DNA from: Lachnospiraceae bacterium
GTDB taxonomy: Bacteria; Bacillota; Clostridia; Lachnospirales; Lachnospiraceae
Length of the DNA stretch: 36,376 bases
NCBI GenBank assembly: GCA_030524705.1
Contig: JAUNGD010000034.1
Span: forward strand, 1-36,376
Direction: 5' to 3'
Made by a program: the position numbers and the translations under genes. This document shows, piece by piece, positions 1,658 to 14,862 of the stretch; the first letter of the stretch is position 1, and every line of letters starts with the position of its first letter. The notes beneath the pieces are model-generated. The model saw nothing but the letters and a program-made list of their open reading frames with translations, made no database searches and was not told the DNA's origin.

Positions 1658-1686
1658 TTGACACAGTTCTATTTTACTGATAAATT
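1658..1686 (+). promoter_or_regulatory. Promoter of the flavoprotein lipoprotein gene
   Basis: TTGACA at 1658-1663 is a perfect -35. After a 17-base spacer, TAAATT at 1681-1686 is a moderate -10. The start codon at 1723 lies 36 bases downstream. The -10 overlaps the left arm of the operator at 1685-1698, the geometry expected for repression. Confidence 0.6.
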
Positions 1687-1698
1687 AGTTGTAACTAA
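1685..1698 (+). promoter_or_regulatory. DtxR-type operator candidate, site 1
   Basis: TTAGTT-GT-AACTAA is a perfect inverted repeat with 6-base arms. It fits the pattern TTAG-N6-CTAA found again at 3711-3744, 4263-4276 and 14845-14858. DtxR/IdeR-family operators are AT-rich palindromes with TTAG/CTAA half-sites, and a regulator of that family is encoded at 3808. Binding is inferred, not shown. Confidence 0.6.
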
Positions 1699-1722
1699 CT
1701 TGACCGAAGGGGTGAAAGAAAG

Positions 1723-3654
1723 ATGAGAAAAAGAATAAAACAAATTGGCCTTATCATGTCAATCAGTTTGCTGGCTGCTCAGTTTCAGGGGGTGACGGGA
1801 TGTGCAGGAGGCACGGAGGATGCTGTTACATGTACTGGTGAAGCGAAAGGAAACAGCGGTCTGGTCACAGTAGAGGTAGTTGCAACGGAAGATGAGATTC
1901 TTTCGATAGAGGTAATCGATGAGAATGAGACAGTAGGGATTGGAACTGCGGCGATAGAGGAGCTTCCCGACGCGATTGTGGAGGCTCAGAATGTGGAGGT
2001 AGACGGTATTTCAGGAGCAACGTTTACCAGTGACGCAATAAAAGAAGCAGTGAGGCAGGCGCTTACGTCGGCGGGATTCGACCCGGATAGTTACGGGCAG
2101 ACGGCAGCGGCTGAGCAGACGGATGAGTCAGAAGGGCAGGAGGCAGAGGATGAGTCTGTGGGCGATCAGGAGATCAATACACAGATTGTTGTTGTGGGAG
2201 CAGGCGGAGCCGGTATGACGGCCGCCATCGAAGCGGCAGACGCTGGTGCGGAGGTTGTGATTGTGGAGAGTCAGCCAATGGTCGGCGGTAATTCAATCCG
2301 GTCAACGGGAGGATTGAATGCCGCAAAGACAGACTATCAGGATGAGAATGAATTTGCCGAGGGCGCAGGGGTAGAAAAAACACTGGCAGCGGCTGAGGAC
2401 CAATATGCGGATAATGAGGCGATTTCATCATTGGCAGAGATTGTGCAGAAACAGTGGAGTGAATATCAGGAAAATCCCACCGGTTACTTTGATTCTGTAG
2501 AGCTGATGGAATTGGATACGCTGATTGGCGGGAAGGGCATAAACGATCCGGAGCTGGTGGAGACGCTTGCCGGTGACAGCAAGGCTGCAGTTGATTGGCT
2601 GGAGTCTATCGGCGCTTCCCTCGCCAGTGTTTCCAGCTTCGGCGGCGCTTCCGTCAAGCGGATACACCGTCCATTGGATGAAGCCGGAAAAGTGGCGGCC
2701 GTTGGCTCTTATCTGATTCCGATTTTGGAGGAGAATCTGGAAAGCCGCGGGATTGAAGTGCTGCTGAATACGACGGCGGAAGAAATTATGGTCGAGGATG
2801 GAAAAGTGTGTGGAATCCGTGCGGCAGGAAATGATGGAGAAACGATCGTAGTCAATTCCGATGCGGTGATTCTGGCCACCGGCGGTTTCGGCGGAAATCT
2901 GGAGATGGTGTCCCAGTTAAATCCGGAGTTGGAGGGCTTCATGACCACGAATGCACCGGGAGCACAGGGACAGGGAATTAAGATGGCGGAGGAGATTGGC
3001 GCAGGTACGGTGGATATGGATCAGATTCAGGTGCATCCCACTGTTCAAGCCGATACCGCAGCGCTGATCACCGAAGGACTGAGAGGAGACGGCGCGATTC
3101 TGGTGAATGCACAGGGAGAGCGCTTTGTCGATGAGGTAGGTACGAGAGACGTGGTTTCCGCGGCAGAGATTGCACAGCCTGGCAGTTACAGTTGGCTGAT
3201 TATGGATCAGGCAATGGCGGATGCGTCCAGCGTCATTCAGGAGTATATTGAAAAAGGCTATACCGTAAGCGGCGAAAGCTATGAAACGCTGGCGCAGGAG
3301 ATGGGAGTAGATGCAGACACTTTTGCGGAGACGATGAATCAATGGAATTCATATGTGGGAAATCAGGAGGATCCGGATTTTGGAAGGACAAGCTTTGCGG
3401 CTGCATTGGATACAGCGCCCTACTATGCAGTCAAGGTGACGGCAGGAATTCATCATACGATGGGCGGACTTACCATCAATACAGAAACTCAAGTGCTTGA
3501 TACAAATGGCAAGGTGATCCCTGGACTGTATGCCGCCGGGGAAGTCACCGGAGGCGTACATGGTGCAAACCGTCTGGGCGGCAACGCAGTTTCAGATTTT
3601 GTTGTTTACGGAAGAATTGCCGGAACGTCAGCGGCAGCGTATGTGGCATCTTGA
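1723..3654 (+). CDS. Secreted FMN- and FAD-domain lipoprotein, fumarate-reductase-like
   Basis: A 643-residue protein. A lipoprotein signal ends in the lipobox VTGC, so Cys27 should be lipidated and the protein held on the outer face of the membrane. Residues about 45-115 form an FMN-binding domain with DGISGAT (94-100); Thr100 fits the target of covalent FMN attachment by ApbE. An acidic linker (131-150) leads to a flavoprotein domain of the fumarate reductase/urocanate reductase family: GAGGAGMTAA at 159, VHPT at 437-440, EGLRGDG around Arg454, IHHTMGG at 576 and GANRLGG near Arg617. Such enzymes reduce a soluble acceptor outside the cell using electrons from membrane carriers. The acceptor cannot be read from sequence. 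The gene has its own promoter and operator and sits between iron genes, so a role in iron reduction or iron-limited respiration is possible. Confidence 0.88.
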   Translation: MRKRIKQIGLIMSISLLAAQFQGVTGCAGGTEDAVTCTGEAKGNSGLVTVEVVATEDEILSIEVIDENETVGIGTAAIEELPDAIVEAQNVEVDGISGATFTSDAIKEAVRQALTSAGFDPDSYGQTAAAEQTDESEGQEAEDESVGDQEINTQIVVVGAGGAGMTAAIEAADAGAEVVIVESQPMVGGNSIRSTGGLNAAKTDYQDENEFAEGAGVEKTLAAAEDQYADNEAISSLAEIVQKQWSEYQENPTGYFDSVELMELDTLIGGKGINDPELVETLAGDSKAAVDWLESIGASLASVSSFGGASVKRIHRPLDEAGKVAAVGSYLIPILEENLESRGIEVLLNTTAEEIMVEDGKVCGIRAAGNDGETIVVNSDAVILATGGFGGNLEMVSQLNPELEGFMTTNAPGAQGQGIKMAEEIGAGTVDMDQIQVHPTVQADTAALITEGLRGDGAILVNAQGERFVDEVGTRDVVSAAEIAQPGSYSWLIMDQAMADASSVIQEYIEKGYTVSGESYETLAQEMGVDADTFAETMNQWNSYVGNQEDPDFGRTSFAAALDTAPYYAVKVTAGIHHTMGGLTINTETQVLDTNGKVIPGLYAAGEVTGGVHGANRLGGNAVSDFVVYGRIAGTSAAAYVAS

Positions 3655-3692
3655 TATAATATAAACGTTTCTTCGATTTTCTAATTTTATAC

Positions 3693-3722
3693 TTGACATC
3701 ACATAAGAAGTTATATTATACT
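3693..3722 (+). promoter_or_regulatory. Promoter of the DtxR-type regulator gene
   Basis: TTGACA at 3693-3698 is a perfect -35 and TATACT at 3717-3722 is a strong -10 with an 18-base spacer. Two operator-like sites at 3711-3744 cover the -10 and the likely transcription start, suggesting autoregulation. Confidence 0.65.
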
Positions 3723-3744
3723 AACCGAAGTTAGATAAAACTAT
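3711..3744 (+). promoter_or_regulatory. Double DtxR-type operator candidate, site 2
   Basis: Two imperfect copies of the TTAG-N6-CTAA pattern lie 20 bases apart: TTAT-N6-CTAA at 3711-3724 and TTAG-N6-CTAT at 3731-3744. Between them, CTAAC-CGAA-GTTAG (3721-3734) forms a further inverted repeat made of the inner half-sites. Each outer half-site has one mismatch. The spacing of two helical turns would put two dimers on the same DNA face. Confidence 0.5.
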
Positions 3745-3807
3745 TTGCACGGCTGGAAATTGATTTTGTGCAAGGATGATTCAAAAAAATGGCGGGAGGA
3801 CAGTTGG

Positions 3808-4221
3808 GTGAGCCGGATGAACAGCGAAAAATCAGAGAAAAAAGAAAGTCCGGCACGCAAAATAAAAGCAGAGTCCCGGGAGGATTATCTGAAGGCTATT
3901 TATGTGTTGTCTGAAAAAAATGGAAGAAAAATCCGTCCTGCAGAATTAGCCAAATATATGCAGTTTTCCAATTCCAGTGTCAGCCGTGCGCTGGGAATAC
4001 TCAAATTGGAAAGACTGATTCAGATGGATGAAAATTATTTCATTTGCCTGACAGAAGAAGGGCAGGGCATAGCCCGAAGCATATACGATAAGCATTGCTT
4101 TTTCAGGCAGAGGCTTTTGGATGCCGGCGTGGAGGAGACAGTAGCCAGTAAAGAGGCTGGGCGGCTGGAACATGCGATTAGTGATGAAAGCTTTAAAAAA
4201 CTTGTTGCAACATTGCTTTAA
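3808..4221 (+). CDS. DtxR/MntR-family metal-dependent regulator
   Basis: A 137-residue protein if started at GTG 3808, which has GGGAGGA seven bases upstream. A TTG at 3745 is also in frame but has no ribosome-binding site. Residues 24-80 are the winged helix, with the recognition helix around SNSSVSRAL. Residues 85-130 form the metal-binding dimerisation domain, with EAGRLEHAISDE aligned to the DtxR segment that carries Cys102, Glu105 and His106. Here Asp26, His96, Glu121 and His122 are kept, but Gly118 replaces the Cys/Glu ligand. There is no C-terminal SH3 domain, so it is of short MntR-like build. It probably senses Fe(II) or Mn(II) and represses the genes whose promoters carry the TTAG-N6-CTAA motif, including its own. 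Confidence 0.85.
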   Translation: MSRMNSEKSEKKESPARKIKAESREDYLKAIYVLSEKNGRKIRPAELAKYMQFSNSSVSRALGILKLERLIQMDENYFICLTEEGQGIARSIYDKHCFFRQRLLDAGVEETVASKEAGRLEHAISDESFKKLVATLL

Positions 4222-4262
4222 CGGTTGTGCATGTTGCGGCAAGTTATATTAATGCACGTCGG

Positions 4263-4276
4263 TTAGATACAACTAA
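4263..4276 (+). promoter_or_regulatory. DtxR-type operator candidate, site 3
   Basis: TTAG-ATACAA-CTAA lies 60 bases before the FTR1 start and keeps the exact half-sites and spacing of the sites at 1685 and 14845. I could not fix the promoter itself: TATATT at 4245 and TAGAAT at 4284 are both possible -10 elements without a convincing -35. Confidence 0.6.
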
Positions 4277-4335
4277 TTTGAAGTAGAATAAAGTAACCGA
4301 AAATTGCGCAGAGGGATGAAAGAGAGGAGAGAGGA

Positions 4336-6144
4336 ATGATGCGTGGCAGTACAAGCGTTTTAAACAGAGTATTTGTTGTGATCATGGCATTTGCCATGGC
4401 GTTTCTCATGGCTTTGCCCCAGGTGAACTACACGAGGGCGGCAGAGACAGGAAAGTGGGAAGCGGCGGCGGATGAAATCGATAAATATCTGGATGCCGGT
4501 TTTGAGTATTATCTGGAGGGTAATGCAAAAGATGCGTATAACTCTGTGAATGACGCATATTTCAAGATTTACGAGGTGACGGGCTTTGAGCGCCAGACGA
4601 TGAGCTACATATCCGGGCCGAGGAAAAATGCGGTGGAGCTTCAGTTTTCTGCCTGCAAGGGCGCCGTGAAAAAGGATAATACGGATGTGGAAATACAGAC
4701 GGAGGTCCGCACGGAGATCAATAAGCTGAAAGCTATGATCCGTGAGGATGGAAATAAGCTGGCGGCAAAGGACGGCGAGGCGTCTTCAGTTACGAAATAT
4801 TACGATCATGGAGAATTGGTGGCCAGTGATCCTTATGCTGACCTGGCAGGAGATCCCGATGCCGCAGTGAAGTATTCTAACTGGACAGAAGCCGCAGAGG
4901 CGGTAAATGAACTGCTGGATACGGCGTTTACGGCTTATAAGGGCAAGGATTACGAGGCGGCGTTAGATAACTATTATACAGCTTTGTATAGTGTGTTCGA
5001 GACTTCTGGTTTGGGAGCTTCCATCTACAGCAATCTGGGCATTGATGGCCGGGGGTCTGTGGATGCGGCATTTGAGGAATTGGAGGAAGTTGCTTCAGGC
5101 GAAAAGTTTCAGAGAAAAGCTTTTCAGAGAAAGACGAATTCGGTCAAGAATCTGCTTCTGGCGGATGCGGAAAAGATTGACACCATTGAATCTGAGGCAA
5201 AAGCGGCAGAGGAGGCAGCGGCGGCAGAAGCAGCAGCGGCAGCGGCCGCAAGCGCAGCGCAGGAAGCTGGTTCTTCCAATAATGGTTATCTGATCTTTAT
5301 TGGCGCGTTTGGAATTATTCTTCGCGAAGGACTGGAAGCTATTCTCGTTATTGCGGCGATCCTGACCTATCTGCTGAAGTCCGGAAACAAAAAGAATGTT
5401 AAAAATGTATATGTGGGATCTGTGATTGGAATTATAGCCAGCTTTCTGGCAGCCTGGGGGCTTACACTGCTCAAGAGCTTTGCTGGAGATGCTTTCGGGG
5501 CACAGTCCCAGGAAATTATCGAAGGTATTACCGCTTTGATTGCCGTGTGCGTTCTGTTCTACGTAAGCAACTGGATGATCTCGAAAGCCGAGGCGGCTTC
5601 CTGGTCGAGATATATTGATGGGATGGTACAAAGCTCAGTGGAAAAGAGCTCGGCATTTGCACTTTCCTTTACCGCATTCCTCTCTGTTTTCCGCGAAGGT
5701 GCTGAGGTAGTTCTGTTTTATCAGCCGATGCTTACAGAGGATGGCAATCCGGGAATGGTATGGGCCGGATTCCTGACAGGCTGCGTTGTTCTGGTCGGAG
5801 TATATTTTGCAATCCGCTTCCTGTCCATCAAGCTTCCGATAAAACCGTTTTTTACGGCGACAAGTATTCTGATGGCTTATATGTCAGTCTCCTTCCTGGG
5901 TTCCGGAATCAAGGAGCTGGCGGAAGGAGGACTCCTGGATGTGACGCGTATTCCATGGATGCTGGAAGAAAACGATGTACTGGATGTCTTGGGAATTTAT
6001 CCCTATGTTGAGATGGTGATTCCGCAGCTTATTCTGATTATCATTCTTGTAGCGACCTTTGTAGCGGCGCGTTATAAAGGAAAAATTGATGCAATGAAGG
6101 CGGAGGCTGCGAAGGCGTCGCAGCAGCCTGCGACAGTAAAATAG
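4336..6144 (+). CDS. FTR1-family iron permease with long extracellular N-terminal domain
   Basis: A 602-residue membrane protein. A signal peptide (about 1-36) precedes two related helical repeats, about residues 41-110 and 183-255, each with a pattern like EYYLEGNAKDAYNS followed by an aromatic-rich helix. An alanine-rich stretch (286-311) leads to a seven-helix FTR1 permease domain. The two iron-pathway motifs are present: REGLE at 330-334 and REGAE at 453-457. FTR1 proteins move iron across the cytoplasmic membrane, usually with an extracytoplasmic partner. The gene leads an operon with the P19 protein and ABC components, and an operator-like site lies upstream. The start has a GAGGAGAGAGGA ribosome-binding site; ATG 4339 is an equal alternative. 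Confidence 0.92.
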   Translation: MMRGSTSVLNRVFVVIMAFAMAFLMALPQVNYTRAAETGKWEAAADEIDKYLDAGFEYYLEGNAKDAYNSVNDAYFKIYEVTGFERQTMSYISGPRKNAVELQFSACKGAVKKDNTDVEIQTEVRTEINKLKAMIREDGNKLAAKDGEASSVTKYYDHGELVASDPYADLAGDPDAAVKYSNWTEAAEAVNELLDTAFTAYKGKDYEAALDNYYTALYSVFETSGLGASIYSNLGIDGRGSVDAAFEELEEVASGEKFQRKAFQRKTNSVKNLLLADAEKIDTIESEAKAAEEAAAAEAAAAAAASAAQEAGSSNNGYLIFIGAFGIILREGLEAILVIAAILTYLLKSGNKKNVKNVYVGSVIGIIASFLAAWGLTLLKSFAGDAFGAQSQEIIEGITALIAVCVLFYVSNWMISKAEAASWSRYIDGMVQSSVEKSSAFALSFTAFLSVFREGAEVVLFYQPMLTEDGNPGMVWAGFLTGCVVLVGVYFAIRFLSIKLPIKPFFTATSILMAYMSVSFLGSGIKELAEGGLLDVTRIPWMLEENDVLDVLGIYPYVEMVIPQLILIIILVATFVAARYKGKIDAMKAEAAKASQQPATVK

Positions 6145-6225
6145 TACCTTATGAGACAGGCGGCAACCCGCATGCCGTGATTGTTTCTGGTAAATAAAAT
6201 GTAAACTTTAAGGAGGATTTTTAAT

Positions 6226-6777
6226 ATGAAAAAGAAAGTATTGGCGCTTTTGGCCGCTGCTGCTATGACAATCTGCAGCGCAATGCCGGTAATGGCTGAG
6301 GAAGCAGGCTTTGAGGAGTTTCCGATTGGCGAGGAGCAGGACGTAGATGTTCTTCATGTAGCCGCTGTATATTTCCAGCCGGTACCCATGGAGCCGGCAG
6401 CAGAAGCTGGTCTTACGGTTGAGGAATCCAATCTTCATATTGAGGCAGACATTTCTGCAAACGAGAACGAGCTGGGATTTGGCGTTGGCGACTGGGTTCC
6501 CTATCTGAGCGTTGATTACAAAGTAATTGCTTCCAGCGGAGACATCGCGGCAGAAGGTACCTTCATGCCGATGAGTGCCAGTGACGGACCTCACTACGGC
6601 GCAAACATTCTTCTTGAAGAGGCTGATACCTATACGCTGACCTTCACCATCCACAATCCGTCCGAGAACGGATATCTGCTGCACATTGATGAGGAGACCG
6701 GTGTTCCTGGTAAGTTCTGGAGTGAGCCGATCGAGGTTACCTTTGAGAATTGGGAGTATGTTCCGCAGGAGTGGTAA
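6226..6777 (+). CDS. P19/Tp34-type periplasmic iron-binding protein
   Basis: A 183-residue protein with a signal peptide ending near VMAEE (residue 24). The mature part matches the P19 family (Tp34, FetP): HIEADI at 71, FMPM at 113-116, DGPHYG at 120-125 and HIDEETGV at 153. By family knowledge His71, Glu73, a Met of FMPM, His123 and His153 would form the paired Cu/Fe site. P19 proteins work with FTR1-type permeases in high-affinity iron uptake, and here the gene directly follows FTR1. The ribosome-binding site AAGGAGG is perfect. A stem-loop at 6806-6844 follows the gene and may set its level relative to downstream genes. Confidence 0.92.
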   Translation: MKKKVLALLAAAAMTICSAMPVMAEEAGFEEFPIGEEQDVDVLHVAAVYFQPVPMEPAAEAGLTVEESNLHIEADISANENELGFGVGDWVPYLSVDYKVIASSGDIAAEGTFMPMSASDGPHYGANILLEEADTYTLTFTIHNPSENGYLLHIDEETGVPGKFWSEPIEVTFENWEYVPQEW

Positions 6778-6805
6778 TATAACTGAATTACAGTAACGAT
6801 TTACA

Positions 6806-6844
6806 GGTGGCATGCGAGACCGCGGGGGAGGGATGCATGTCACC
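6806..6844 (+). repeat. Intercistronic stem-loop after the P19 gene
   Basis: GGTGGCATGC (6806-6815) pairs with GCATGTCACC (6835-6844) across a 19-base G-rich loop, with one G-T wobble. There is no T-run after it, so it is not a classic terminator. It could protect the 3' end of the P19 message or slow transcription into the operon. Confidence 0.45.
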
Positions 6845-6885
6845 ATGTTTACGTTATAAAAAATGAATCACTGGAGGAGTTTGAA

Positions 6886-8172
6886 GTGCTGAATTATATT
6901 GCAACAGTAACAGAAGATCTTGTGGTTATAGTGATTCTGATTACCATGCTCTATGCTTTTTTTAACATGACCTGCGGTCACAGAGGGAGGCGTTCCCAGA
7001 AAATAGGCATCGCTGCCGGCCTGCTTGCTTCTGCGGCTATGGCGGTTGCAAAAAATGTTACCAGCAAAATTGCGACAAACCGATGGAATCTTTATATTTT
7101 TTATGTCGGCATAGCAGCTGCTTTGTTATTTGTTATTTTTTCCCTTCTTTCTATACGTCGGAAGTCTTCCGGCCTGACGGCAGCGGAGCTGATTGCTCAT
7201 TTGAGCGGAGCAATTCTGACGGCGGATCTGATTTTTTATGAAGCGCCGGATGTCATGGCCTATCCGTTTAAATTCGAGACTTTGGGGAGCGGAATATTTT
7301 CCGTTGCTTATCTGGTGCGGCTGATCGGATGGCTGGTGCCGCTCATTCTTTTGTACGTGATGGCGCGGTGCCTGTATCGGTCAATACTGACTCTGGGTTC
7401 TATCAGAATGCTGTCTGCATCGCTCTATCTGGCGCTTGCGGTCAATGTATTCCGTTTTGCGGGGCTGATTCTGGGAAAATGGCTGGCAAAACCGAAATGG
7501 CTTACCTGGCCGGTGTTCCGGTCGTCGGATCATCCCTGGGCCTTTCCCTTTGCAAAATTTGTATCCAACAATACTGTATTTTTTATCGTGATTACGGAAG
7601 TCATCGCCCTGCTGATTCCCATTGTCCTGGCAGCACGAAGCATCCATGTGACGCAGCCTTATGAAAATTCTGCCCAGCGCCGAAAATTGATTGCGGCAAA
7701 CAGGCACCGCCGGCGCCAGACCGCGGTAATCGTGCTGTGTGCAGCGGTCTTTGTCGTCAATCTCACTGTAGTCAAAGCGTATATCTCCCAGGAAGTGGAA
7801 TTGTCAGAGCCGGAGACATATGAGATTGAAGATGATAAGATATTGATTTCACTGGAGCAGCTTGCTGACGGGCACCTGCATCGCTATGAATACACAACGG
7901 ATGATCAGGTGAATGTGCGGTGGATCATTATCAAGAAGCCTGGTTCCGGGGCATACGGCGTGGGACTGGATGCGTGCAACGTATGTGGTATCGCCGGATA
8001 TTTTGAGCGTGACGGGCAGGTAGTCTGCAAGCGGTGCGATGTTGTGATGAATATTAACACAATCGGATTCCAGGGAGGCTGCAACCCGATTCCGCTGGAA
8101 TATACGGTGGAGAACGGCTCCATTGTGATTCCGGTACAGGCGGTCATTGACGGAAAGAAGAAATTTGAATAA
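6886..8172 (+). CDS. DUF2318 membrane protein with Fe-S type cysteine motif
   Basis: A 428-residue protein starting at GTG 6886, six bases after GGAGGAG. It has about eight membrane helices up to residue 300, ending with the segment AVIVLCAAVFVVNLTVVKAY, then an extracytoplasmic domain. That domain carries CNVCG, then CKRC about 16 residues later, and a further Cys in FQGGCNPIP: the DUF2318 signature, annotated as Fe-S containing. Homologues sit next to FTR1/P19 in other bacteria (Cj1660 in Campylobacter jejuni). A redox role, such as keeping iron ferrous or passing electrons, is plausible but unproven. Confidence 0.85.
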   Translation: MLNYIATVTEDLVVIVILITMLYAFFNMTCGHRGRRSQKIGIAAGLLASAAMAVAKNVTSKIATNRWNLYIFYVGIAAALLFVIFSLLSIRRKSSGLTAAELIAHLSGAILTADLIFYEAPDVMAYPFKFETLGSGIFSVAYLVRLIGWLVPLILLYVMARCLYRSILTLGSIRMLSASLYLALAVNVFRFAGLILGKWLAKPKWLTWPVFRSSDHPWAFPFAKFVSNNTVFFIVITEVIALLIPIVLAARSIHVTQPYENSAQRRKLIAANRHRRRQTAVIVLCAAVFVVNLTVVKAYISQEVELSEPETYEIEDDKILISLEQLADGHLHRYEYTTDDQVNVRWIIIKKPGSGAYGVGLDACNVCGIAGYFERDGQVVCKRCDVVMNINTIGFQGGCNPIPLEYTVENGSIVIPVQAVIDGKKKFE

Positions 8173-8184
8173 GGAGAGAGCAAA

Positions 8185-9483
8185 ATGATAATTCGTATGA
8201 TTCGCGGAGCTCTGATCCGGCAAAAGGGTAAGATGATGCTGATTGCATTTACGATTGCGCTGGGTACATCGCTGGCGACCGCCATGTTGAATGTGATGCT
8301 GGATGTAGGAGATAAGGTTAATCAGGAATTAAAGACATACGGAGCCAATATTACGGTAAAGCCTAAGGATTCTTCCCTCCTTTCAGATTTGTATGATGTG
8401 GAAGATGAAGGTGATGCCATTCAGACCTCTTATCTGCAGGAGGATGAGGTCAGTAAATTGAAAACAATATTCTGGGCTTTTAATATTGTGGATTTTGCGC
8501 CGTTCATGGAGACGGCAACCGCTCTGCCCGACGGTTCCGAGGCAAAGGTAGTGGGTACCTGGTTTAATCATCATTTGGATTTAAGTACGGGGGAGTCCCT
8601 GGATGCGGGGGTGACCACGCTGAGAACGTGGTGGGATTTAACGGAAGGTACGTGGATTGACGAGCAGCAGGATTCTTTGAACTCGGCCATGGTGGGAGCA
8701 GTCCTGGCCGAAGCCCAGGGGTGGCAGACGGGAGATACCGTTACACTGGATGGGCCGGCATCCTCTGCTGAGGTCACGATTGTAGGTATTTTTGATGGCG
8801 GCGGAGATGAGGATGAACAGATCTATGCGCCGCTGGATCTCGTTCAGTCGCTGAACGATACGGAAGGAAAAGTATCTTACATAGAGGTGAGCGCCCTAAC
8901 AACGCCGGACAATGATCTGGCCCGGCGTGCCGCCCAAAACCCACAGGCACTGTCCAGTGCCGATTATGAAACCTGGTATTGTACGGCGTATGTCAGCGCA
9001 ATCTGTTATCAGATACAGGAGGCGATCACAGACTGCGTTGCATCAGCAGTTCGCCAGGTGGCAGAGTCAGAGGGAACGATTCTTGATAAGACACAGCTTT
9101 TGATGATTCTGATTACGATTCTCAGTCTGATCGGTGCTGCTCTGGGAATCTCAAATCTTGTGACCGCCAGTGTGATGGAGCGGGCAAAAGAAATCGGATT
9201 GCTCAAAGCAGTCGGTGCCAGAGATCACTCTATCACAGGACTGGTATTGACGGAGATATTGATAACGGCGCTGATCGGCGGAGTGGCCGGTTATTTTATG
9301 GGCTTTGGATTCGCACAGCTGATCGGACAGACGGTGTTCGGCTCGGCAATCGAGATGCGGCTTATGGTGGTTCCTATTGTGATCGTGCTTATAGCCCTGG
9401 TAACTGCCGCCGGCAGCGTTCCGGCAATTTTTATGGTGCTGAGGCTTGATCCGGCTGAGGTGCTGCATGGTAGCAAAGCATGA
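8185..9483 (+). CDS. MacB/FtsX-type ABC permease, first of operon
   Basis: A 432-residue permease. An N-terminal helix (LIAFTIALGTSLATAMLNVM) is followed by a large extracytoplasmic domain (about 45-295) and three C-terminal helices, the FtsX/MacB layout. The conserved turn GLLKAVGAR after the second helix fits the coupling region that meets the ATPase. It follows the DUF2318 gene by 12 bases. With the next permease and the ATPase at 10669 it corresponds to the Cj1661-Cj1663 trio of the Campylobacter iron locus. Proteins of this type usually transmit mechanical work across the membrane rather than forming a channel. Confidence 0.88.
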   Translation: MIIRMIRGALIRQKGKMMLIAFTIALGTSLATAMLNVMLDVGDKVNQELKTYGANITVKPKDSSLLSDLYDVEDEGDAIQTSYLQEDEVSKLKTIFWAFNIVDFAPFMETATALPDGSEAKVVGTWFNHHLDLSTGESLDAGVTTLRTWWDLTEGTWIDEQQDSLNSAMVGAVLAEAQGWQTGDTVTLDGPASSAEVTIVGIFDGGGDEDEQIYAPLDLVQSLNDTEGKVSYIEVSALTTPDNDLARRAAQNPQALSSADYETWYCTAYVSAICYQIQEAITDCVASAVRQVAESEGTILDKTQLLMILITILSLIGAALGISNLVTASVMERAKEIGLLKAVGARDHSITGLVLTEILITALIGGVAGYFMGFGFAQLIGQTVFGSAIEMRLMVVPIVIVLIALVTAAGSVPAIFMVLRLDPAEVLHGSKA

Positions 9484-9510
9484 TCAGACAGAGAGAAGGG
9501 ATTACGGGAT

Positions 9511-10653
9511 ATGAATAAAAAAAGAAAAATGCTGTTAAAGATGGTTACGGCATCTCTGCTCAGAAGGCGGTCAAGAATGCTGATTGCTCTGTTGTCAATT
9601 GCAGTGGGCGCAACAATCTTATCCGGTCTGGTGACAATTTATTATGATGTTCCTAGGCAGATGGGAGCACAGTTCAGAAACTATGGCGCGAATATGATTT
9701 TGGTGCCGTCTGACGAAGAAACGATGACGCAGGAAGGTGCTCAGGAATGCATGGATATAATTCCGGCGGACGATCTGGTAGGAGCTTCGCCCTATCGCTA
9801 TATTAATGTCGAGATGAACAGCCGTCAGAGAATCTTTGTGGCGGCGGGAACCGATTTTGAACAGGTGCAGTCTACCAGCCCTTATTTTATGGTAGATGGG
9901 GAATATCCTTCCTCAGAGCGGCAGGTACTGGTGGGAAAAGAGACGGCAGAGCTGATCGGGGCCAGGATTGGTTCCGTGCTGGAGCTTTCCTACAAACCGG
10001 AGGGCGGCAAAAGAAACTCCTTGAAGTTTACTGTTTCCGGTATTCTGGACACAGGCGGGGATGAGGAATCCTATATTTTTATGACGCTGAAAGCAATGTC
10101 AGATCTGACGACCGAAGAGACTGCGCTGGATGTCATGGAGCTGAGCATTTCTTCAACAGAGGAGGGACTGGAAAATTATATTACACAGATTTCTGAAATG
10201 GATAATGGAATCCAGGCGCGTCTTGTAAAGAGGGTAACAAAATCGGAGGCTTCGGTACTGTCAAAGCTGCAGTCGCTGGTACTGCTGGTGACGGTGGTGG
10301 TGCTGCTTCTTACTATGATCTGTGTGTGTACGACCATGATGGCTGTGGTGTCAGAGCGGAGAAAAGAGATCGGCCTTAGAAAGGCATTGGGAGCTTCAGA
10401 TCAGAGTATACGCACGGAATTTTTATATGAAGGAATGTTTTTAGGATTACTGGGCGGCATTCTGGGAACAGTTCTGGGGTTTGTGTTTGCACAGACCGTC
10501 AGCGTAAATGTGTTTGAATCGTCAATTACGTTTCAGCCGCTGCTTCTGCCTGTCACGGTAATTGCCTCTATGCTGATTGCAGCATTATCCTGCATGATAC
10601 CGATCAAAAATGCGATTGCAATAGATCCGGCTTTGGTGCTGAAGGGCGAATAA
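9511..10653 (+). CDS. MacB/FtsX-type ABC permease, second of operon
   Basis: A 380-residue permease of the same family as its neighbour: one N-terminal helix (LIALLSIAVGATILSGLVTI), an extracytoplasmic domain of about 220 residues, and three C-terminal helices with EIGLRKALGAS between the first two. It probably pairs with the 8185 permease in a heterodimer served by the ATPase 15 bases downstream. The start is ATG 9511 behind an AGAGAAGGGA sequence. Its partner role is inferred from gene order. Confidence 0.88.
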   Translation: MNKKRKMLLKMVTASLLRRRSRMLIALLSIAVGATILSGLVTIYYDVPRQMGAQFRNYGANMILVPSDEETMTQEGAQECMDIIPADDLVGASPYRYINVEMNSRQRIFVAAGTDFEQVQSTSPYFMVDGEYPSSERQVLVGKETAELIGARIGSVLELSYKPEGGKRNSLKFTVSGILDTGGDEESYIFMTLKAMSDLTTEETALDVMELSISSTEEGLENYITQISEMDNGIQARLVKRVTKSEASVLSKLQSLVLLVTVVVLLLTMICVCTTMMAVVSERRKEIGLRKALGASDQSIRTEFLYEGMFLGLLGGILGTVLGFVFAQTVSVNVFESSITFQPLLLPVTVIASMLIAALSCMIPIKNAIAIDPALVLKGE

Positions 10654-10668
10654 AAGGAGGAGAAGAAA

Positions 10669-11343
10669 ATGAGTCTTCTGGAATTAAAAAATATTTCCAA
10701 AATATATGGAGAGCTGCATGCGCTTGACAATGTAAATATCCATGTGGAAAAAGGCGAGTGGGTGGCAATTATGGGGCCTTCCGGTTCAGGAAAGAGCACT
10801 ATGATGAATATCATTGGCTGCATGGATAAGCCCACGTCCGGAGAGGTTTATCTGGACGGCGTAGATATTTCAAAGGAAAACGGGAAAAAACTGACAGAGA
10901 TCAGAAGAGATAAAATCGGGCTGATCTTTCAGCAGTTTCATATGGTAAATTATCTGACTGCGGTTGAGAATATCATGGTGGCGCAGTACTACCATTCTAT
11001 CCCGGACGAAGAAGAGGCGCTGGAGGCCCTGGAGCGAGTGGGGCTTAAAGATCGGGCCCGGCATCTGCCGAGCCAGCTTTCCGGAGGAGAGCAGCAGAGA
11101 GTATGCGTGGCCAGGGCTCTTATTAATCATCCTGAGCTTATCCTGGCGGATGAGCCTACCGGAAATCTGGATGAGGCGAATGAAAATATCGTTCTGGATC
11201 TGTTCCGGCAGCTTCACAGAGAGGGAACGACTTTAGTCGTAGTTACGCATGACCCGGAGGTAGCAGAGGCGTCGCAGAGGACAATTGTGCTGAAAAACGG
11301 GCGTGTGGCAAAAGAGATTATAAATGAAAATTTTCAGGATTAG
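10669..11343 (+). CDS. MacB/LolD-type ABC ATPase, first of operon
   Basis: A 224-residue stand-alone ATPase. Walker A is GPSGSGKST (36-44), the Q-loop is FQQFHMVNYLTAVEN, the signature is LSGGEQQR (137-144), Walker B is LILADEPTGNLD (157-168) and the switch histidine is in VVTHD. The GNLD D-loop and short size are typical of the LolD/MacB group that drives FtsX-like permeases. AAAGGAGG gives the ribosome-binding site. It should power the two permeases just upstream. Confidence 0.93.
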   Translation: MSLLELKNISKIYGELHALDNVNIHVEKGEWVAIMGPSGSGKSTMMNIIGCMDKPTSGEVYLDGVDISKENGKKLTEIRRDKIGLIFQQFHMVNYLTAVENIMVAQYYHSIPDEEEALEALERVGLKDRARHLPSQLSGGEQQRVCVARALINHPELILADEPTGNLDEANENIVLDLFRQLHREGTTLVVVTHDPEVAEASQRTIVLKNGRVAKEIINENFQD

Positions 11344-11355
11344 GGGACAAAGAAA

Positions 11356-11769
11356 ATGAAAAACAGGAAAATCTGTGTGCTTGATGCGGCAATACTTATC
11401 TTGTTTTGCCTTCTGACAATCGGTGTTATTACCTTTCTCAGACCCTGCGGGGTACATGAGGACGGAAGCTACAGCTCTTGCCACTGGGCCGGCAGAATTC
11501 TGTTCGGATTTGGAATAACCGGAATCCTGGAGATGGTTTTTGTATTGCTTTTGCAAAAGCCGTTCCGTTTCGGTGTAAATGCGGCAGTATTTTTGCAGGC
11601 AGTTTTGATGGTGATGATTCCGGGAGGGATTGTCTCCCTCTGCGGGATGAATACCATGCGCTGCAATTTGATTATGAGACCGGGCGTCCAGGTGATTTCA
11701 CTGGTGATCGCTTTGTTGGCGGCAATTAATCTTTGGATGATTTGGCGATTGATACAAAAGGAGAAGTAA
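11356..11769 (+). CDS. DUF4418-type small membrane protein
   Basis: A 137-residue protein with four predicted helices. Cysteines lie at the membrane border: FLRPCGVHEDG, SSCHWAGR, LCGMNTMRCN. The CHWA and MxC motifs match DUF4418, a family of unknown function often seen with FtsX-like ABC genes. It sits between the first ATPase and the third permease with gaps of 12 and 1 bases, so it belongs to the operon. The conserved cysteines and histidine could bind metal or form disulfides; that is inference only. Confidence 0.75.
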   Translation: MKNRKICVLDAAILILFCLLTIGVITFLRPCGVHEDGSYSSCHWAGRILFGFGITGILEMVFVLLLQKPFRFGVNAAVFLQAVLMVMIPGGIVSLCGMNTMRCNLIMRPGVQVISLVIALLAAINLWMIWRLIQKEK

Positions 11770-11770
11770 T

Positions 11771-12973
11771 ATGAAATTCAGTAAAATTCCTTTGCGTAAT
11801 CTGCTTCACAGACGGGGACGTACTGCCGTTTTGACTGTTCTGGTAGCTTTACTGGCCTTCACATTATTTTCAGGGGCATATATAATGCTCAGCCTTCACA
11901 GCGGAATCGACAGCCTGGAAGCAAGGCTGGGAGCAGACATTATCGTAGTGCCTTCTTCTGCAAAGTCAAAGGTCGATCTGGACAACATTCTGCTGCAGGG
12001 AACCACCGGATATTTTTATATGTCGGCAGATTATTTTGATAAAATAAAGCAGACAGACGGGGTTGAGCAGGCATCCGCCCAGATCTTTCTTGCATCACTG
12101 AAGGCGTCCTGTTGTTCTGTAGCCGTGCAGGTGATCGGCTTTGATCCGGAGGCAGATTTTACAGTTCAGCCCTGGATTGAGAAAAAATACAATCAGAAGC
12201 TGGAAACGTATGATGTGATCGTAGGGGATACGGTAAATGCAGAGGTAGGCGATTATATTACCATTTACGAAAAAAACTGCCGGGTCGTAGCGCGCCTTGA
12301 CAGGACAGGAACCGGGATGGACACGGCAATTTATACTACCTTTGATACCATCCGGCTGCTGCTTTCTTCTGCGCAGGAATTAGGGCATGACCTCAAAATT
12401 TCAGGCGATCCCTCCAGTGTCATTTCCGCTGTGTATATTAAGACGTCAAAGGACGCTGCCGTGGAGAGCGTTGCGAATGATATTAATCTGCATGTCCGTA
12501 AGGTTCAGGCCGTAGAGACTAAGAATATGCTAAGCGGTGTATCCAGCAGCATGACGGGAATTTCATCCGCTCTTGTTCTATTGATCGGTATTGTCTGGAT
12601 TCTGGTATTTTTGATTATTATTTTTTCCTTTATCATGATTACCCGGGAACGCCGCCTGGAATTTGCGGCTCTCCGCGTGATAGGGGTATCCAGAAAAATG
12701 CTGGCACAAATGATTCGTAAGGAGACGGCAATCGTGTGTCTTTTGGGAAGCATTATTGGCGTCCTGGCCGGCTGTCTGGTGGTATTTCCCTTTGGAAGCC
12801 TGATTGAAGTGAGCTTGGGACTGCCATTTTTGACTCCCAGGCTGAGCACAGCAGCGGGGCTTGCGGCGGGCACCGTGCTGGGGGCGTTGATTACAGGAAT
12901 TCTGGCGTCTCTGTGGACGGTACGCCGGGTCAGCCGTCTGGAGGCGAGTACAATTCTACGGGAGGGTAACTAG
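11771..12973 (+). CDS. MacB/FtsX-type ABC permease, third of operon
   Basis: A 400-residue permease with an N-terminal helix (VLTVLVALLAFTLFSGAYIM), an extracytoplasmic domain to about residue 255, and three C-terminal helices with RVIGVSRKML in the coupling loop. It is followed without a gap by its own ATPase, so it looks like a second transporter unit. It may act as a homodimer. The Campylobacter p19 locus as I know it has only two permeases and one ATPase, so this unit is extra. Confidence 0.87.
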   Translation: MKFSKIPLRNLLHRRGRTAVLTVLVALLAFTLFSGAYIMLSLHSGIDSLEARLGADIIVVPSSAKSKVDLDNILLQGTTGYFYMSADYFDKIKQTDGVEQASAQIFLASLKASCCSVAVQVIGFDPEADFTVQPWIEKKYNQKLETYDVIVGDTVNAEVGDYITIYEKNCRVVARLDRTGTGMDTAIYTTFDTIRLLLSSAQELGHDLKISGDPSSVISAVYIKTSKDAAVESVANDINLHVRKVQAVETKNMLSGVSSSMTGISSALVLLIGIVWILVFLIIIFSFIMITRERRLEFAALRVIGVSRKMLAQMIRKETAIVCLLGSIIGVLAGCLVVFPFGSLIEVSLGLPFLTPRLSTAAGLAAGTVLGALITGILASLWTVRRVSRLEASTILREGN

Positions 12974-13717
12974 ATGAAGCTATCTGCAGAAAAAATTGCG
13001 AAATGGTATCACCGAAGCCGTGGGGAGGCCAATCATTTTTATGCGGTCAGAGAAACAGATTTTGAGTTGCTTCCCGGGAAACTGACTATGATTACCGGAC
13101 ATTCTGGAAGCGGGAAAACCACATTACTTCATATGCTGGCGGGACTTTTGAGGCCGGATGCGGGCAGAGTATCCGTTGACGGCATTGATCTATACGGAAT
13201 GAAAGATAAAGAACAATCGCGTTTCCGGAATGAGCATATCGGACTGATTACACAAAAGCACTTGAGTGTCCAGAGCTTAAATGTGCTGGAGAATATATTG
13301 CTGCCGTCTTCCCTGTACCATGACGGCTGTACAAATGAAGAAAAGGCGCTGGAATTGTTAGATTACTTTCAAATGGCGGATATGAAAGATGCTCTTCCGG
13401 GGGAGCTTTCAGGCGGAGAATTAAGGCGTATGAATGTCATTCGTGCCCTGACAGCGGATACGGAAATTCTTATGGCAGATGAACCTACGGGAGATATGGA
13501 CGCTGAGAATACGCAGCGTGTACTGAAAAAACTGAGGGAAAAAGCGGATGCGGGAACCGCAGTTTTATTAGTAACCCATGAAATGACTGCGGAAAAATAT
13601 GCGGATCGGATCTATATAATGGAGGCAGGGGGTCTGAATTTTGACAGGGGAGAAATGCAGGACGATGTGCCCATAGGAAACAGTCAAAATAGAAGCCTAC
13701 ATCAAGGAGCATTTTAA
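12974..13717 (+). CDS. MacB/LolD-type ABC ATPase, second of operon
   Basis: A 247-residue ATPase with Walker A GHSGSGKTT (42-50), signature LSGGELRR (145-152), Walker B EILMADEPTGDMD (from 164) and switch histidine VTHE. The ATG directly follows the TAG of the permease gene, so the two are coupled. The last 20 or so residues (from MQDDVPIG) read through DNA that, in another frame, encodes a hydrolase fragment. The natural C-terminus was therefore probably replaced when that DNA was joined. All catalytic motifs are upstream of the junction, so the enzyme should work. Confidence 0.9.
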   Translation: MKLSAEKIAKWYHRSRGEANHFYAVRETDFELLPGKLTMITGHSGSGKTTLLHMLAGLLRPDAGRVSVDGIDLYGMKDKEQSRFRNEHIGLITQKHLSVQSLNVLENILLPSSLYHDGCTNEEKALELLDYFQMADMKDALPGELSGGELRRMNVIRALTADTEILMADEPTGDMDAENTQRVLKKLREKADAGTAVLLVTHEMTAEKYADRIYIMEAGGLNFDRGEMQDDVPIGNSQNRSLHQGAF

Positions 13718-13802
13718 CGGAAAGATAGATATTGCCTATGGGTGTTCCCTGGGCGGTTCCGATCTTGACCAGGCGGGCAGGTTTTTCACGGGGCTGAATT
13801 AG
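13677..13802 (+). pseudogene. Alpha/beta-hydrolase remnant
   Basis: In the frame of base 13683 the DNA reads ETVKIEAYIKEHFNGK, then IDIAYGCSLGGS and SDLDQAGRFFTGLN, ending with TAG at 13800-13802. GCSLGGS is a nucleophile-elbow motif of alpha/beta hydrolases. In full-length relatives, as I know them, an intervening stretch separates it from a later GSSDLDQ. The direct join suggests a deletion between two GS-coding spots. The start of the gene is missing and the fragment overlaps the end of the ATPase gene. Confidence 0.6.
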
Positions 13803-14002
13803 GCGCTGACAAATCCATTGGTCTATCACTATCCGAAAGCATTTCAAGGACCCGGATATCCGAAGATACGATTTGGAGTATGAGGAGGTTTCATTATTGG
13901 TCGGGCGTTTGTTATGTATGTGGTCATTGCTTTGGCTGATAGATTTCTGCTGACATTATTTTGAACCGGTTTTTCCAGAGAAGTAAATAAAAATCCGAAT
14001 GG
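13803..14002 (+). other. Decayed intergenic stretch with possible hydrolase C-terminal scrap
   Basis: No intact gene. One frame around 13838-13880 reads HFKDPDIRRYDLEYEE, which looks protein-like and may be another piece of the hydrolase broken at 13677-13802. The rest shows nothing I can assign. Confidence 0.35.
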
Positions 14003-14037
14003 CACAGGCTATAACGAAATTACGGCCTGTGTTTTTT
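14003..14037 (+). terminator. Rho-independent terminator of the FTR1 operon
   Basis: CACAGGC (14003-14009) pairs with GCCTGTG (14025-14031) across a 15-base loop, followed by six T and then CTTT. It closes the iron operon and insulates the TetR gene. Confidence 0.8.
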
Positions 14038-14071
14038 CTTTGCTTTGGATCAGATATTTTTTTGAAGCCTA

Positions 14072-14100
14072 TTGACAAATGAGCACAGGGTTTCTATAAT
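14072..14100 (+). promoter_or_regulatory. Consensus promoter of the first TetR gene
   Basis: TTGACA (14072-14077), a 17-base spacer and TATAAT (14095-14100): a perfect match to the housekeeping consensus. The palindrome at 14100-14131 begins at the last base of the -10. Confidence 0.85.
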
Positions 14101-14131
14101 GATAATTAGATTATCGGTAATCGTATTATCA
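14100..14131 (+). promoter_or_regulatory. 32-base palindromic operator candidate for TetR
   Basis: Arms TGATAAT and ATTATCA enclose inner arms GATTA and TAATC around a TCGG centre. Of 32 positions only the TA/GT pair and the four central bases break symmetry. It starts at the -10 and ends 16 bases before the TetR start, the classic place for an autoregulatory TetR operator. Confidence 0.7.
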
Positions 14132-14147
14132 ATTGGGAGGTGGGAAC

Positions 14148-14789
14148 ATGGCAAGACCGGATCGCTCTCTGGATCCGCGGATTCTGGAGAGCGCCAGGAA
14201 TGAATTTCTTACTATGGGTTTCGAGAAGGCTTCGCTGAAAGCGATTTGTGACGGAGCCGGGGTGACAACCGGGGCGCTGTACAAGCGGTATGCCGGGAAA
14301 GAGGAACTGTTTCAGGCGGTCGTGGCCGACACGGTGGAGGCTTTGGAAAGGGTTCTTCGGGAAAAAAGCGTCACAGATTTTTCGGATGTTACAGATGCTG
14401 CCCTTGTTAAAGCCTGGGACATGGACGAAGCATACATGATGTGGTGGTTCCGGTTCCTGTTTGAACGGTATGACGGTTTTGTGCTGCTGTTAAAATGCGC
14501 CGAGGGAACACGGTATTCCAATTTCCAGCATGACTGGGTGGAGAAAATGACGCAGTCTACCTATCGCTATTATCGGGAGGCCTGCCGCAGAGGCTTGTGT
14601 ACCGCAGACATTTCAGAAGGTGAGATGCATATTCTGCTGACAGCTTTTTGGGCAACGATCTATGAGCCATTCATCCATGATTATCGGATGGAGCAACTGG
14701 AAGACCATTGTAAACTGGTATGCCGTCTGTTTGACTGGTTCTCTACCCTTGGTTTTTCAGAAGAAGCGGTTCATCATGTGATAATATAA
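14148..14789 (+). CDS. TetR/AcrR-family regulator, upstream of ABC pair
   Basis: A 213-residue protein from ATG 14148, seven bases after GGGAGG; the in-frame TTG at 14133 falls inside that ribosome-binding site. The N-terminal helix-turn-helix covers about residues 10-55 (ILESARNEFLTMGF, then VTTGALYKRYAGKEELF). The C-terminal ligand domain contains MMWWFRFLFERYDGF and resembles that of the second TetR protein at 18487. The gene has a consensus promoter with a long palindrome and precedes the ABC exporter genes, so it probably controls itself and perhaps them. The ligand is unknown. Confidence 0.88.
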   Translation: MARPDRSLDPRILESARNEFLTMGFEKASLKAICDGAGVTTGALYKRYAGKEELFQAVVADTVEALERVLREKSVTDFSDVTDAALVKAWDMDEAYMMWWFRFLFERYDGFVLLLKCAEGTRYSNFQHDWVEKMTQSTYRYYREACRRGLCTADISEGEMHILLTAFWATIYEPFIHDYRMEQLEDHCKLVCRLFDWFSTLGFSEEAVHHVII

Positions 14790-14801
14790 CTTGAGGTGTA
14801 T

Positions 14802-14830
14802 AAGGTTCCTTCTTTGGTGGAAGGAACTTT
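14802..14830 (+). repeat. Hairpin between TetR and ABC exporter genes
   Basis: AAGGTTCCTTC (14802-14812) pairs with GAAGGAACTTT (14820-14830) with one wobble and a 7-base loop. It begins 13 bases after the TetR stop. Only a short T-run closes it, so it may be a weak terminator. TATAAT at 14830-14835 starts at its last base and may be the -10 of an ABC promoter, though no good -35 is visible. Confidence 0.45.
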
Positions 14831-14840
14831 ATAATCCACA

Positions 14841-14862
14841 TTGGTTAGCGAGAACTAACCAA
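14841..14862 (+). promoter_or_regulatory. DtxR-type operator candidate, site 4
   Basis: TTGGTTAG-CGAGAA-CTAACCAA is a perfect inverted repeat with 8-base arms, the best of the TTAG-N6-CTAA family here. It lies just downstream of TATAAT (14830-14835) and 22 bases before the first ABC gene. It places the exporter pair under the same presumed metal regulator as the FTR1 operon. Confidence 0.68.

Follow-up and report, generated by a model that had tools for sequence, protein, structure and literature searches.

We analysed a 36,376-nt stretch of DNA (the window), which is the whole of contig C130 of a 3.87-Mb Lachnospiraceae assembly (88% complete) and which carries a run of FTR1 and P19 iron transport genes, a gene for a short DtxR-family protein and several copies of the palindrome TTAG-N6-CTAA. 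This palindrome is probably the operator of a short DtxR-type iron repressor, bound by a single dimer and serving an iron regulon of the Lachnospiraceae and of some other clostridial families. As the sequence-only reading had reported, three exact copies are present in the window, compared to a mean of 0.32 and a maximum of 2 in 100 dinucleotide shuffles, none of which reached 3. The two one-mismatch copies that it had placed at the regulator gene, at 3711 and 3731, are present as well, but the window holds no excess of one-mismatch sites (7 compared to 9.4 expected; 81 of 100 shuffles reached 7), and these two are therefore credited by position and not by number. What makes them credible is their place over and just after the regulator promoter, together with the frequent occurrence of a site upstream of DtxR genes in the family.

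The assembly contains 31 exact copies of TTAG-N6-CTAA and 16 of the longer form GTTAG-N6-CTAAC. The surroundings of 28 of the 31 were surveyed in 20 stretches picked around the sites (one stretch, on C40, is without a site), together with the three in the window. Although 88% of these 202 kb lies inside open reading frames (ORFs) of at least 100 amino acids, 29 of the 31 sites lie outside them (p = 7e-25), and the motif is thus not as frequent inside genes as upstream of them. The two 'inside' sites are apparently the window copy at 14845, in an ORF extended to a TTG, and a site in L024, within an ORF that runs opposite to a hydrolase-like gene; on inspection by hand both lie just 5' of likely starts. 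One 'outside' site sits in a 70-residue ORF which by eye looks like rpmC (L039). In the same 202 kb, nine other patterns had between 0 and 6 matches each, and those with at least three lay mostly inside ORFs, with the exception of CTAA-N6-TTAG (4 outside, none inside). Genome-wide, the 14-mer is less frequent than its reversed control (31 compared to 55), whose four matches in the surveyed stretches all fall inside ORFs. Since the reversed pattern is a poor control for the 14-mer, we relied on the 16-mer, the intergenic fraction and a ranking of all inverted repeats.

The genes beside the sites include FeoA and FeoB with a divergent DtxR gene (contig C37), Peripla_BP_2 or FecCD genes of FecB/FecCD-type systems on three contigs, two Trep_Strep membrane proteins, three AraC genes and ABC_membrane pairs. 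No obvious target gene was seen beside the sites on C39, C84 and C122, and some neighbours had no Pfam match (L025, L026, L040). The claim of a single operator family at the promoters of iron genes agrees with this distribution, ahead of FeoAB, FTR1, FecBCD-type and other transporter genes. Its restriction to a single iron island was too narrow, as the operator is found throughout the genome, across the family and in other clostridial families.

A scan of relatives gave the same picture. In 120 Lachnospiraceae genomes, one per genus, GTTAG-N6-CTAAC occurs 699 times compared to 198 for the reversed word (Wilcoxon p = 1.5e-15), with at least one copy in 112 genomes. We then ranked all 3,328 inverted repeats (256 × 13) in the 350 bp upstream of 95 DtxR genes, and TTAG-N6-CTAA was the commonest, present at 35 of them, an autoregulatory placement. 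The same arms at gaps of 4, 5, 7 or 8 were found at 0-4 genes and at a gap of 10 at nine, while the runner-up repeat, GTTA-N8, is the same palindrome shifted. A smaller sample of DtxR loci had the site in 13 of 30. As FTR1 and P19 were each found in only two of the 120 genomes, our own included, the footprint at FTR1 was drawn from named clostridial genome contigs, taking 80 of the 157 relatives found there (749 kb of loci in total). The site lies within 350 bp upstream in 63 of the 80, where it again ranks first of the 3,328 repeats (the others have a median of 0); of the 145 sites in the 749 kb, 127 fall in those upstream regions. It also occurs in other clostridial families, both at these loci and in a survey of the class.

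Three short DtxR proteins of 126-158 residues are encoded in the genome, on C133, on C37 and in the window. Those of C37 and the window (3808-4221) match the Fe_dep_repress helix-turn-helix (HTH) and Fe_dep_repr_C domains above the Pfam cut-off, which bears out the earlier assignment of a DtxR-type repressor among the sites. No further Pfam domain, and hence no SH3-like third domain, was detected in the two of the three proteins on which Pfam was run. Two other Pfam matches above the cut-off, on C78 and C40, were set aside as MarR-type by eye. The C37 protein, whose gene adjoins intact feoAB, has a match in 114 of the 120 family genomes at E 1e-5, and the window protein in 113. In the seven genomes that lack a match to the window protein the site counts are 3, 6, 0, 1, 3, 0 and 0, whereas the other 113 average 6.1 (p = 0.0024); the three of the seven that are at least 95% complete hold 0, 1 and 0.

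Alignment of 128 DtxR rows, at least one of which (G004_L110_66) is doubtful, placed a Cys at the position of IdeR Cys102 in 126 rows and Glu105 and His106 in 127. At position 10, 65 rows have Asn, 54 Asp and 8 Met, with one gap, so that measured against the primary site of IdeR (Met10-Cys102-Glu105-His106) eight rows have the IdeR-type pair of Met10 and Cys. In an alignment to solved MntR the Cys falls at Glu99. Among solved structures, MntR chains are the closest to the C37-type protein, and the NCBIfam MntR equivalog cut-offs were not reached by the C37 protein (79 compared to 153 bits, and 66 compared to 138) or by the window protein (55 and 44 bits). Two Fur-family matches were found in the genome, and the sole full-length one is considered PerR-like because it adjoins a gene reading by eye as rubrerythrin. 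Taken together, the hybrid ligand site, the iron-type targets and the position of this Fur-family gene favour iron as the metal, and the reader would thus repress in an Fe(II)-dependent manner.

The window protein differs at this site. It is the only row with Gly where 126 have the Cys (the remaining row has a gap), and its ligand positions read Asp10, Lys13, His79, Gly102, Glu105 and His106, identical in a sister genome (L234). It is a diverged paralogue, and the main reader is most likely the short Cys-containing DtxR encoded beside feoAB on C37. The earlier proposal that the local regulator binds the sites is therefore only partly supported: a DtxR-type protein is the most likely reader, but the local one is doubtful as the main reader.

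The geometry of the palindrome points to the same protein family. The 19-bp box TTAGGTTAGSCTAACCTAA is described as being occupied by two IdeR dimers, with a pair of CCTAA repeats for each (PMC8464063), and the half site TTAGG-N4-CCTAA as taking one dimer (PMC8464063, PMC10317159). TTAG-N6-CTAA has the geometry of this half site as given there, namely two NCTAA repeats 4 bp apart (PMC8464063). Instead of the full box with four CCTAA repeats, only the two-repeat palindrome recurs, with a main arm-spacing peak at a gap of 6 and a lesser one at 10. The full form of the operator is GTTAG-N6-CTAAC with inner bases mostly Y..R, and at repeat position 1, which is mostly A, G or T, only 4 of 116 half-sites in the DtxR genes' own promoters have C. 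According to the same papers, this position is contacted by Gln43 of IdeR (PMC8464063, PMC10317159). Residue 43, which lies in the recognition helix, is Val in 73 of the 128 rows, Ile in 26, Arg in 13 and His in 9, and is Gln in none. The ratio of G-type to A-type palindromes is 35:4 in the 12 genomes with Arg43, compared to 43:85 in the 82 genomes with only Val or Ile (GC-corrected permutation p = 1e-4), and own-promoter half-sites have G at position 1 in 23 of 36 cases with Arg43 compared to 22 of 76 with Val or Ile (p = 8e-4). In these sequences, residue 43 thus covaries with the base that it should contact.

Several observations weigh against this interpretation. An exact site is lacking at 17 of the 80 FTR1 loci, six of which have a one-mismatch copy, and in the 350 bp upstream of 60 of the 95 DtxR genes. 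In the rest of the class, 10 or more sites were counted in only 10 of 142 genomes (control: 2 of 142), and the distribution there is therefore patchy. Of the seven genomes that lack a DtxR match, three (completeness 86-89%) nevertheless hold 3-6 sites, while five with a match (G050, G061, G064, G083, G094) have no exact 16-mer; a sixth, G066, has a weak match to the C37 protein. G050, G061 and G094 keep TTAG-N6-CTAA before their DtxR gene, and the outer bases of their palindrome may have shifted. The Arg43 rows are not independent, as they form two groups and a single row in a poorly resolved part of the tree, which leaves the number of separate Arg43 changes uncertain. One Arg43 genome (G060) runs the opposite way (0:3), two (G046, G047) hold neither palindrome, and some Arg43 genomes hold further DtxR proteins, with the possibility of other paralogues unseen. 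Finally, the ligand set also resembles that of the manganese sensor MntR, and the absence of a true Fur is insecure because the assembly is only 88% complete.

The regulon could answer to manganese through an MntR-type protein, with the iron genes only a part of it. The solved relatives of the C37-type protein and the MntR-like Asp/Asn10 and Glu13 are in keeping with this. However, Cys replaces the MntR Glu99 in nearly all rows and some have Met10 as in IdeR, and the targets identified belong to iron, siderophore/haem-type and similar systems (manganese transporters were not searched for), so that we regard manganese as quite improbable. A dedicated role of the local DtxR as reader of the island sites would fit with its gene lying amid the sites, with two degenerate copies over its own promoter, and with the retention of the gene and its residues in the sister genome. 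Such a role is nevertheless unlikely, given that the same operator occurs genome-wide, and also in family genomes where the best match to this protein reaches no more than 45% identity, that FTR1 and P19 are confined to two of the family genomes sampled, and that the protein lacks the conserved Cys.

A regulator of another class, AraC or TetR, might also own the sites, as a TetR gene precedes the ABC transporter pair of the window and AraC genes lie beside several sites. These neighbours vary from locus to locus, in contrast to the DtxR matches in 113-114 of the 120 genomes (AraC and TetR proteins were not surveyed), and both the single-dimer geometry and the covariation of residue 43 with the site speak for DtxR; we hold this alternative to be very improbable. 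As for chance recurrence of an AT-rich word, the unenriched one-mismatch class in the window and the low count of the 14-mer relative to its reversed control are points in its favour, but the contrast between coding and intergenic sequence, the excess of the 16-mer in the family and the rank of the inverted repeat upstream of both FTR1 and DtxR genes refute it, and its probability is practically negligible.

The operator, its enrichment, its autoregulatory placement, its geometry, the ligand residues and the covariation are read directly from the sequences; the following account of how the protein binds, which metal it senses, whether it represses and how the paralogues divide the work is inferred from them. 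One dimer of a short DtxR repressor (∼125 residues, with an HTH and a metal/dimerisation domain and no SH3-like domain) would bind one palindrome, with each recognition helix on one NCTAA repeat at the 4-bp spacing of the actinobacterial TTAGG-N4-CCTAA. The ligand site of the C37-type reader has a Cys at the position of IdeR Cys102, the other ligands being MntR-like. In its Fe(II)-bound state, the repressor would cover the -10 or start region and shut off FeoAB, FTR1-P19, siderophore/haem-type ABC transporters, other importers and its own gene, and it would let go as iron falls. The window DtxR probably binds like sites over its own promoter and tunes the island under weaker or different metal control.

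The predicted system resembles IdeR/DtxR of Actinobacteria in its winged-helix repressor family, its CTAA-ending repeats at one-dimer spacing, the position of sites over or near the -10 element or the start, and its iron uptake targets. Unlike those regulators, the clostridial system uses the half site only, with a first base that is mostly A, G or T and not C; residue 43 is mostly Val, Ile, Arg or His and never Gln in the 128 rows; the SH3-like domain is absent; and the host is low in GC. With MntR of Bacillus subtilis and E. coli it shares the two-domain length, Asp/Asn10, Glu13 and the closest solved relatives of the C37 protein, whereas the Cys in place of Glu99 and the iron-type targets set it apart. 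The MntR box differs from the clostridial operator. The Fur regulons of low-GC Gram-positive bacteria have the same physiological role, served by a different protein family and operator.

According to a 2023 review, iron control in low-GC Gram-positive bacteria is the task of Fur and DtxR proteins serve for manganese alone, and the use of IdeR half sites by other species remains to be investigated (PMC10317159). Among the matches listed in the open-access literature, none described an iron regulon under DtxR control in Lachnospiraceae or other gut clostridia, and an earlier prediction could stand in RegPrecise or in subscription journals. A large gut family and some of its relatives appear to run an iron regulon on the IdeR half-site geometry with a short DtxR protein and not with Fur. 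The operator makes the regulons of uncultured gut clostridia readable from sequence, residue 43 offers a candidate for a natural specificity switch, and the FTR1 loci point to metal-blind DtxR proteins.

These FTR1 loci contain 25 DtxR-like genes, whose residues were read on trimmed domains, with untrimmed ends in agreement. Arg or Lys occupies position 10 in 19 of them. Fifteen of the 19 lack all six ligands; in L277 and L311 Glu105 is the only one left, and L300 and L313 are truncated by a contig end. The 19 form one group with a support of 100/100, one long-branch row within it. Most of these homologues align over nearly the full DtxR model; in L271 and L250 the HTH is above the Pfam cut-off and the metal domain was not detected, and in L295 both domains appear only below the cut-off. 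The AlphaFold2 model of the L271 protein (mean pLDDT 90.9) matches the structures of DtxR, IdeR and MntR over ∼110 residues, with TM scores by query length of 0.76-0.82 for most of the best matches, and the model therefore suggests that the DtxR fold is retained.

In many FTR1-P19 loci an array of two to three palindromes lies between FTR1 and a divergent operon, which in the loci viewed closely consists of a minimal AraC gene and the ligand-less DtxR gene. The arrays have preferred spacings: among 64 consecutive intervals, 23 are of 27-28 bp, 6 of 96-100 bp and 15 of 125-138 bp. A small AraC-like ORF was seen by eye in 11 of 12 loci, and HTH_18 was confirmed in both of those tested (L271 and L295). 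In L271 the start of the DtxR homologue overlaps the stop of a 127-residue AraC-type gene. We advance tentatively, as the less probable outcome, that two DtxR proteins compete for the same operators in the iron control of FTR1. One would sense iron; the other, which has the DtxR fold and recognition helix but not the metal ligands, would be insensitive to metal and serve as a competitor or anti-repressor, perhaps switched through its conserved Cys. The Cys-less DtxR of the window would be a partial, independent case. An AraC-type HTH gene of ∼130 residues that is divergent from FTR1 and lies next to or overlaps the ligand-less DtxR gene was noted at L271:3997-4748, with similar arrangements in L312, L250, L295, L269 and L301. 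The operator array of L271 also contains an 18-base direct repeat, AAACTGGTCAATATCAGG, at 4840-4857 and 4872-4889, a candidate site for the small AraC protein. Across the FTR1 upstream regions (L234-L313) a weaker second peak, TTAG-N10-CTAA, is present in 19 of 80 loci and could arise from CTAACTAA extensions of the palindrome.

Within the window, the sites had been described as lying at or near -10 elements or shortly before starts, and they do so. The exact operator TTAGTTGTAACTAA (1685..1698) overlaps the -10 element of TTGACA-17-TAAATT (1658-1686) found in the promoter scan and ends 24 bp 5' of the ATG of a flavoprotein gene (1723..3654, + strand), a putative regulon member with FMN_bind and FAD_binding_2 domains, flavocytochrome c-like. 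The degenerate copy TTATATTATACTAA (3711..3724) overlaps the -10 element of TTGACA-18-TATACT (3693-3722), and TTAGATAAAACTAT (3731..3744) lies just 3' of this promoter. The gene downstream encodes the short, divergent DtxR paralogue (3808..4221, + strand; ligand set D-K-H-G-E-H, residue 43 Arg, no third domain), and GTG 3808 was taken as its start on account of a ribosome-binding-like GGGAGGA ahead of it.

The exact operator TTAGATACAACTAA (4263..4276) ends 59 bp 5' of the ATG of FTR1 (4336..6144; above the Pfam cut-off and below the NCBIfam cut-offs), which is followed by a P19-type Fe2+ transport protein (Iron_transport; 6226..6777), an FtrD-like membrane protein (6886..8172) and two FtsX/MacB permeases with an ABC ATPase (8185..11343), assigned by domain matches and all on the + strand. 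This run resembles the Campylobacter-type P19/FTR1 iron uptake cluster in its row of FTR1, P19, an FtrD-like protein, two FtsX permeases and an ABC ATPase; the clostridial loci differ in being under a DtxR-type operator, some with adjacent DtxR-family genes.

The third exact operator, TTAGCGAGAACTAA (14845..14858), is an extended palindrome GGTTAG...CTAACC. It starts 9 bp past a TATAAT at 14830-14835, seen by eye and not listed by the promoter scan, and ends 25 bp 5' of GTG 14884, which is preceded by AAGGAGG. This GTG is the likely start of a pair of ABC_membrane and ABC_tran transporters with an export-type fold (14884..18446, + strand, domain matches), the mechanical ORF opening upstream of the site at a TTG; the TetR gene lies ahead of the pair. 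The sister genome is 86.6% identical over the 9.5 kb compared, a stretch that does not include the 14845 site. There, the half-sites of 1685 and 4263 are unchanged while 4 of the 12 spacer bases have changed; of the degenerate copies, 3711 is still TTAT/CTAA and 3731 is TGAG/CTAA. At 411-1560 of the window an intact feoA is followed by broken feoB pieces in several frames, as judged by eye; intact feoAB is on contig C37.

Four of the other loci with sites in the genome carry further gene arrangements. In L028 (3801-7223) an operator lies upstream of the gene for an HMA-domain protein that matches FeoB_associated weakly, together with a partial FUR-family gene and a P-type ATPase. In L030 two operators 61 bp apart (4088 and 4149) lie before an enolase gene, followed by a peroxiredoxin (AhpC), a thioredoxin-reductase-like gene and a DtxR paralogue, which raises the question of whether this glycolytic and antioxidant run is under iron control. 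Similar alpha/beta-hydrolase-like genes (by eye, MKFY.FG...) at L024:2863-3654 and L027:1354-2142 have operators ∼25 bp and 379 bp upstream, respectively.

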